Of a stretch of DNA of 11,913 nucleotides, positions 1,589 through 2,142 are shown in pieces. The translations under genes were made by a program, and so were the position numbers. How positions within the stretch are numbered: the stretch's first letter is position 1; every line of letters starts with the position of its first letter. Source of the DNA: Lachnospiraceae bacterium (lineage in GTDB: Bacteria; Bacillota; Clostridia; Lachnospirales; Lachnospiraceae); NCBI GenBank assembly GCA_017443685.1, contig JAFSYD010000062.1, forward strand, positions 1-11,913, written 5' to 3'. Under the pieces are notes generated by a model. The model saw nothing but the letters and a program-made list of their open reading frames with translations. It was not told where the DNA came from and searched no databases.

Positions 1589-1960
1589 ATGGCTTTTCAG
1601 GAAGAATATCATTTTACATTGCCGCGCGGCTATAAGGACATGGACGGGAATCTGCACCGGGAGGGCGTGATGCGTCTTGCGAACGCGGGTGACGAGATTT
1701 TGCCGCTTAAGGATCAGCGGGTGCAGCAGAATCCGGCGTACCTGTCGATCATTCTTTTATCAAGGGTGATCACGAAGCTGGGAGATCTGCCGGCGGTTGA
1801 TACGAAGGTGATCGAGCGGCTTTATACGATGGATCTTGCGTATTTACAGGAGCTTTACGAGGAGATCAATTCCTCGGATATGCCGCATTTTCGCGGGACC
1901 TGCCCGCATTGCAATAAAGAGATCGATATTCCCGTAAATTTTATGGAAGCCGGACGGTAA
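1589..1960 (+). CDS. Tail assembly protein (phage / contractile injection system type)
   Basis: This 123-residue protein resembles the small tail-assembly proteins next to DUF6760 in contractile injection systems and phage-like tails. It has an N-terminal strand-rich part (FTLPRGYKDMDG), the motif REGVMRLANAGDE, then NPAYLSIILLSRVITKLG, helical LYTMDLAYLQELYEEIN, and a CPHC half of a possible zinc ribbon (CPHCNKEIDIPV). In such systems these proteins are thought to help tail-tube assembly and are not part of the final particle. The start is firm: AAGGAGG at 1574-1580 lies eight bases before ATG. No sheath, tube, baseplate or ATPase gene is visible nearby, so its partners must lie elsewhere or be lost. 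The zero frame ends at TAA 1958-1960, while a -1 shift at 1936-1942 would give a 184-residue product. Confidence 0.7.
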   Translation: MAFQEEYHFTLPRGYKDMDGNLHREGVMRLANAGDEILPLKDQRVQQNPAYLSIILLSRVITKLGDLPAVDTKVIERLYTMDLAYLQELYEEINSSDMPHFRGTCPHCNKEIDIPVNFMEAGR

Positions 1961-1973
1961 AAACATATCCGGC
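1936..1973 (+). promoter_or_regulatory. Candidate programmed -1 frameshift site
   Basis: The slippery heptamer A-AAT-TTT (1936-1942) is in the correct phase, with zero-frame codons GTA AAT TTT. A 6-base spacer (1943-1948) follows, then a hairpin GCCGGA (1949-1954) with TCCGGC (1968-1973), whose 13-base loop holds the zero-frame TAA. This is the classic three-part layout of a -1 shift signal. A -1 shift is a conserved trait of many phage tail-chaperone gene pairs, as in lambda G/GT. Slippage would join the tail gene to the open frame ending at 2142. The efficiency of this heptamer in clostridia is unknown to me. Confidence 0.6.
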
Positions 1974-2142
1974 GGATAAAATCTACGAGGAAATGGCGTT
2001 CATCGGCTACTATATGCACTGGGAGGCGGACAGCATTGCCGCGATGAGTCATAGAGAGCGGACCCGCTGGTGCAGCGAGATCTCGAAGATCAACAGCAAG
2101 CTGAACCGTGAGCCGGAACGCAAAAATGTGTTTGAAATATAA
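1942..2142 (+). CDS. DUF6760-like segment, probably expressed as a -1 frameshift extension
   Basis: After the proposed slip this frame adds 66 residues, starting at TAT 1942 and ending at TAA 2140-2142. Its core, YPADKIYEEMAFIGYYMHW followed by SHRERTRWCSEISKIN, matches the small DUF6760 family, encoded beside tail-assembly genes in contractile injection systems. In this frame there is a stop at 1915-1917, and no ATG, GTG or TTG lies between it and the conserved YPADK. The first ATG (1993) would cut off the conserved start, and its purine run is too close to serve as a good ribosome binding site. Independent translation is therefore unlikely, and a fused 184-residue product is the better model. 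An ordinary frameshift mutation or a non-standard start remains possible. The murE region follows in the same frame. Confidence 0.6.
   Translation, partial: YGSRTVKTYPADKIYEEMAFIGYYMHWEADSIAAMSHRERTRWCSEISKINSKLNREPERKNVFEI

Follow-up and report, generated by a model that had tools for sequence, protein, structure and literature searches.

How is a DUF6760-like domain translated when its reading frame overlaps the end of a tail-assembly gene and holds no usable start codon of its own? This question is raised by positions 1,589 to 2,142 of an 11,913-nucleotide stretch of a Lachnospiraceae genome (contig JAFSYD010000062.1; the whole stretch is called the window below), for which an earlier note, made from the sequence alone, had proposed that a programmed -1 frameshift joins the two frames. 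We examined this junction in the window, in bacterial relatives and in plasmid and phage records, and weighed frameshifting against independent starts and against error or decay.

Anatomy of the junction in the window

The upstream member of the pair is a forward-strand open reading frame of 123 aa in frame 0 (1589-1960), taken from the ORF list and assigned as a tail assembly chaperone by its match to PHROG 508 (phrog_508, E 1.1e-8), a family also matched by 10 of 11 chaperones of relatives. In a Pfam search, no family, including the curated chaperone families, exceeded its cut-off for the window chaperone. Its AlphaFold2 model has a mean pLDDT of 79, with low confidence from residue 98 onward. 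The reading frame ends at a TAA at 1958-1960 on the forward strand, as seen both by direct reading and in the ORF list.

The overlapping -1 frame contains no stop codon between 1918 and 2139, the preceding stop lying at 1915-1917, and its forward-strand portion coding for the extension (1939-2142, with the stop at 2140-2142) matches the Pfam family DUF6760 (PF20546) with 52.6 bits against a cut-off of 27 (E 4.8e-14). AlphaFold2 models this part, 67 residues long, as three helices (mean pLDDT 85.6), of which the first is predicted to span residues 12-26. Solved structures searched by sequence gave no convincing match for either the chaperone or DUF6760. When the window was compared with four relatives, pN was 0.08-0.22 and pS 0.66-0.89 in both the chaperone and the DUF6760 parts, so that silent changes far outnumber amino-acid replacements in both frames.

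Across the junction the frame-0 codons read GTA AAT TTT ATG GAA GCC GGA CGG TAA. Direct reading of the forward strand places the slippery heptamer AAATTTT at 1936-1942, in X XXY YYZ phase with the tail ORF (A AAT TTT), followed by a 6-nt spacer, ATGGAA (1943-1948), and, by reading and folding, by a 6-bp hairpin (1949-1973) that pairs GCCGGA at 1949-1954 with TCCGGC at 1968-1973 and encloses the TAA in its 13-nt loop. The earlier note had described a heptamer, a 6-base spacer and a hairpin with the stop codon in its loop, and each of these was borne out by the window sequence. The same is true of its statement that the -1 frame lacks a usable start, as no ATG, GTG or TTG precedes the ATG at 1993, which lies already inside the DUF6760 domain.

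The junction recurs among relatives

Among 98 relatives searched, 11 genomes carry DUF6760, at 12 loci in all, and a family sample yielded it in 39 of 397 genomes (40 loci, E 1e-8). It was present in 13 of the 398 genomes of a phylum sample, and two class-wide searches, covering 10 and 4 genomes, returned no new locus. A pattern scan of genome contigs found at least 584 relatives, and because the best 80 of these were kept, this set leans towards its query; in viral contigs, 3 relatives were obtained.

At all 40 family-sample loci DUF6760 lies in the -1 frame of a chaperone ORF and is accompanied by a run heptamer, namely AAATTTT at 36 loci, TTTTTTG at 3 (two from one genome) and TTTTTTA at 1. 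A first pass over 121 loci produced 119 chaperone-DUF6760 rows, duplicates included, with 118 in the -1 frame and one in +1. Both a +1 and a -1 row came from L037, in which the first ORF is broken, and no pair was present in L013, L025 and L121. With duplicates removed and L037 set aside, the pooled set comprises 131 unique junctions, reported here as raw counts that ignore kinship.

Every one of these 131 junctions is in -1 phase. AAATTTT, whose loss in relatives the earlier note had named as evidence against a shift, is retained in 119 of them. The other 12 consist of 7 with another in-phase XXXYYYZ run under a looser rule that admits any bases, 4 with GGGGGA only, and one with none of these (L088), which reads C AAT TTT, has lost the heptamer and carries a TTG at the overlap. 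At one further locus, L026 (G448:C10:651-830), a TAG interrupts the stretch matched to DUF6760, yet AAATTTT stands at the junction.

With the same -1 junction recurring across the family sample and the pooled set, the shift is no peculiarity of the window genome. The earlier note had also pointed to single-frame fusions elsewhere as a possible sign of a recent mutation. Among the best 120 of 7974 matches to the 184-residue product, 4 are fused with DUF6760 (P0172, P0174, P0177 and P0181), each forming a one-sequence cluster with an altered joint, and a recent single-genome fusion was ruled out on these matches. A sequencing or assembly error, or a gene in decay, would fit the draft state of the window genome (1.68 Mb, 352 contigs, 71% complete) and the distance of the pair from the sheath-tube locus described below, but the occurrence of the same junction in 131 unique sequences and the paucity of amino-acid changes relative to silent ones rule this out for practical purposes, and we regard its probability as negligible.

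The putative slip site is constrained beyond its coding content

The conservation of the heptamer reaches beyond what the protein sequence explains. AAATTTT at the junctions is not a chance occurrence, because it is found in 119 of 131 junctions and in none of 2777 control windows of 40 nt elsewhere in the same ORFs. Under a strict rule (in-phase XXXYYYZ, with X different from Y, Y = A or T, and Z not G), heptamers of any kind occur in 35 of these 2777 windows.

Immediately ahead of AAT TTT, an A stands in 119/119 AAATTTT junctions, and the residue encoded by the preceding codon is Leu, Ile or Val, with CTA used 56 times, ATA 31, GTA 22 and TTA 10. Because four different codons keep the same A, this pattern argues for repeated change under constraint (the counts ignore kinship). 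In the first set, an A-ending Leu, Ile or Val codon stands at the slip site in 93/93 cases, compared with 470/2450 elsewhere in the ORFs. Across 93 unique AAATTTT junctions, with kinship ignored, the slip-site A column has a z of 18.9, the next highest of the 116 columns reaching 8.6. Within the heptamer of these 93 junctions, Asn is always AAT and Phe always TTT, while elsewhere in the ORFs AAT accounts for 160 of 291 Asn codons and TTT for 217 of 300 Phe codons.

A second position also stood out. At alignment column 112, the third base of the codon that lies five before the Phe codon of the heptamer, G occurs in 81/93 junctions, where about 54 would be expected. One possible cause of this preference is a stimulator (GAGG) that resembles a ribosome-binding site and precedes the slip site.

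Possible independent starts for DUF6760

Between the heptamer and the YP motif, 93 of the 119 AAATTTT junctions, including that of the window, hold no ATG, GTG or TTG. The remaining 26 do carry a start there (ATG alone in 11, TTG alone in 10, GTG alone in 3, mixed in 2), so that an independent start, which the earlier note had set against its own reading, is lacking ahead of the domain in the 93 and available in the 26, an occasional feature and not the general one. These 26 junctions would suit a free DUF6760 protein made by translational coupling, with ribosomes restarting on an overlapping ATGA, GTGA or TTGA and, elsewhere, on a non-standard codon. Annotators do enter DUF6760 as a separate CDS, and 8 of 17 plasmid pairs (below) have an ATG or GTG at the overlap, following a G-run that is possibly ribosome-binding. 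Coupling is nevertheless hard to reconcile with the 93 junctions that offer no such codon before the domain, the window among them, and it leaves the invariant A AAT TTT without a reason; we consider it improbable.

Initiation further downstream, at the internal ATG 1993, would give a shortened free protein and would require that the heptamer serve another use. Met occupies this position in 98 of the 119 AAATTTT junctions and in 15 of the 33 rows of alignment A4, and it is the start chosen in some database gene calls (P0019, P0034). Against such a start, the residue differs from Met in 21/119 junctions, and Y10, P11 and E18, all upstream of the internal Met, are nearly invariant among 26 aligned proteins. 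A protein begun at this Met, residue 19, would also lack half of the helix predicted at residues 12-26. We judge an internal start to be very improbable.

Two further observations speak against independent starts as the rule. The -1 frame remains open even through the sequence inserted ahead of the domain in L003 and L164. The stand-alone DUF6760 gene calls in databases comprise 43 proteins of 49-84 aa, and the 26 that were aligned start at several different sites. Because the database gene calls examined break this product up or truncate it, annotations and the sequence sets used in proteomic searches probably lack the long protein.

A hairpin in the closest clade

The window hairpin has a predicted energy of -10.5 kcal/mol (z -1.97), and 8 of 200 shuffled sequences fold at least as well, making it weak by energy alone. 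All 19 unique junctions with a downstream GCCGG share a 5-bp GCCGG/CCGGC stem after a spacer of the same 6 nt; since choosing junctions by GCCGG fixes the 5' arm, only the 3' arm is a test. In this arm the Pro codon is CCG in 18/18 junctions read (L003 has an insertion), and CCG makes up 66 of 151 Pro codons in the chaperone ORFs of the same clade and 45 of 100 at the same position outside it. The sixth pair varies over the 19 junctions, being A-U in 9, G-U in 2, G-C in 1 and mismatched in 7.

In the wider group, 80 of 93 junctions have, over the 40 nt after the heptamer, a folding energy lower than the average obtained by mononucleotide shuffling of the same stretch (mean -8.6 kcal/mol, vs -6.4 for shuffles). 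The stems differ among these 93 junctions, and no stimulatory hairpin shared by the entire group emerged from them. The hairpin of the earlier note thus persists as a 5-bp core in the 19 closest junctions and gives way to no common stem beyond them, which lends modest support to its being a feature of the closest clade.

Genomic setting of the pair

The locus of the relative L017 places the pair in a recognisable context. A sheath gene and a tube gene precede the chaperone and DUF6760, and a second tube gene and a gene for a 1447-aa protein, for which no Pfam match was found, follow them; downstream of the latter lie a CIS_tube/LysM protein, a hub, Phage_base_V and gp25, and the stretch also encodes an AAA ATPase. 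By this gene content, the locus around the pair is recognisable as a contractile injection system.

In the window, the pair stands alone between PIN7 and Mur ligase genes. Another contig of the same genome, C146 (L025), encodes a sheath and a pair of tubes of the gp19 type, of which the second scores slightly below its cut-off, together with Pvc16_N, AAA ATPases and Baseplate_J. Neither a chaperone nor DUF6760 was detected in this injection-system locus, including the interval between the sheath and tube genes and the second tube, and the sole DUF6760 found in the genome, at 71% completeness, is the window's own. The separation of the pair from the injection locus may reflect either relocation or an assembly effect.

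Plasmids, phages and other phyla

A tblastn search of plasmid records returned 41 records. Of the 23 that were examined, 17 have the pair and 6 do not (L130, L132, L134, L141, L143 and L144). Injection-system loci of other phyla show the same domain beside the same upstream neighbour, in the -1 frame in 16 of the 17 pairs; in the exception, L140, the chaperone is shortened and DUF6760 lies in frame 0. Upstream of the domain, an in-phase GGGGG follows CTG, ACG, GCG, TCG or CCG in 15 of the 17 plasmid pairs, vs 8 of 372 background windows. An ATG or GTG stands after the G-run or at the overlap in 8 of the 17 pairs, and the other 9 have no ATG, GTG or TTG there. The G-run could be a slip site or, equally, a ribosome-binding site.

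The earlier note had described DUF6760 as a separate gene in relatives, and annotators do give it a CDS of its own in other phyla, begun at an overlapping or an internal start codon. This status is at least partly an annotation habit, because nearly all plasmid pairs have the -1 phase and no start follows the G-run or lies at the overlap in 9 of 17; for the 8 pairs with a start, the description may hold. From these sequences, frameshifting is likely in other phyla too.

We consider it possible, at somewhat less than an even chance, that frameshifting is the ancestral mode, common to contractile injection systems, of producing DUF6760 as a rare extension of the chaperone instead of a separate protein, with the slip sequence drifting among AAATTTT, TTTTTTR and GGGGGAR and replaced by an overlapping start in some lineages. 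DUF6760 would on this reading be the chaperone part that sets assembly ratios in such systems.

Several variants were seen along the way. Two cyanobacterial plasmids (L131, L140) carry two chaperone copies in tandem, and double-length chaperones also occur as fused single proteins of about 250 aa (P0165, P0166). In the Deinococcus plasmids L132 and L144, a small gene occupies the place of DUF6760 and overlaps the chaperone by 4 nt; the DUF6760 profile did not recognise it. A tblastn search of 50,697 phage records with one chaperone gave no match at E 1e-3, and a P2 gpE scan of viral contigs returned 80 near-identical loci, which were left out of the counts.

A model for expression of the pair

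These observations make it very probable that a conserved -1 programmed ribosomal frameshift yields DUF6760 as an extension of the chaperone. The central proposal of the earlier note is in this respect supported at the sequence level, by the -1 phase of all 131 junctions and the AAATTTT of 119. The frameshift signal is, by the same comparison, a conserved property of the pair in the window's family and in the wider group. On the other side stand the 26 junctions with a start and the 98 with an internal Met, the lost heptamer of L088, the frame-0 pair L140, the broken L037, the restriction of the hairpin to the closest clade, the lack of a match between the chaperone and P2 gpE, and the distance of the pair from the injection locus of its own genome.

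In the model that we propose, most ribosomes would stop at the TAA at 1958-1960 and release the 123-aa chaperone, and a minority would move into the -1 frame on A AAT TTT and go on to produce a 184-aa chaperone-DUF6760 protein. In the closest clade, the slippage would probably be aided by the short G+C hairpin. By analogy with G/GT of phage lambda and E/E' of phage P2, the short form may cover a protein that resembles a tape measure, and the long form, through its DUF6760 tail, may recruit tube subunits of a contractile injection system. The long form probably helps build a phage-tail-like injection machine. We infer the slippage, its efficiency and the role of the long form, with the division of labour carried over from lambda G/GT.

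If the model is correct, a widespread domain of unknown function would gain both a role and an expression mode. The strong conservation of the junction opens the question of tail chaperones in injection systems to direct testing.

Comparison with known systems

The frameshift device itself is known from phage tail chaperones, and no description of its setting in injection systems was found in the open-access literature searched. No paper found in that literature mentions DUF6760. As far as the accessible parts of these sources go, no programmed chaperone frameshift was found for contractile injection systems or tailocins, the papers on ribosomal frameshifting together with contractile injection concern phage tail-tube proteins, and the match examined for frameshift together with eCIS describes a mutation in another gene. 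Two papers on Streptomyces injection systems report no typical tape measure in their accessible portions, and the main text, to the same extent, contains neither 'frameshift' nor 'chaperone' (PMC10066040, PMC12237407). For actinobacteriophages, the accessible part of one study reports GGGGGAA as the motif of joined tail chaperone genes (PMC10885494); the same motif is found at most of the cross-phylum plasmid junctions, whereas AAATTTT stands at the junction of the window and of its near relatives.

The closest likeness in gene order is to phage P2, in which FI (sheath) and FII (tube) are followed by E, by E' through a -1 frameshift, and by T (putative tail length determinator); the pair in L017, lying between tube genes, resembles E/E' in placement. 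P2 E is a Phage_TAC_7 protein, and Phage_P2_GpE (PF06528) is located in the E' part. The E' extension contains an HW motif, as does DUF6760, and an hhalign comparison of DUF6760 with P2 E' gave a probability of 69 (E 4.5e-5, for one comparison) over 29 columns around this motif. PF06528 was matched by 3 of 33 DUF6760 members (best E 0.0016), and the window domain had no match to it at E 3; DUF6760 is thus weakly similar in sequence to P2 E'. Homology of the chaperone with P2 gpE was considered as well, and no match was found. T4-like phages are said to make their tail chaperones in a way other than frameshifting, according to the title of one paper.

For scale, a tail-chaperone frameshift efficiency of 6-7% has been measured, according to the available part of one report (PMC3711429). 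In phage lambda, a -1 frameshift near the end of the tail-chaperone gene makes GT, the rare extended form of G; as described in the accessible portion of the source, the binding partner of G is the tape measure and that of the T part is the tube protein, at a ratio of about 30:1 (PMC5009743). The window pair is likened to G/GT by its arrangement, and the ratio and binding roles given here are those of lambda. Should the likeness extend to function, it would point to the retention, in contractile injection systems, of the frameshift by which phage tails set their ratios.
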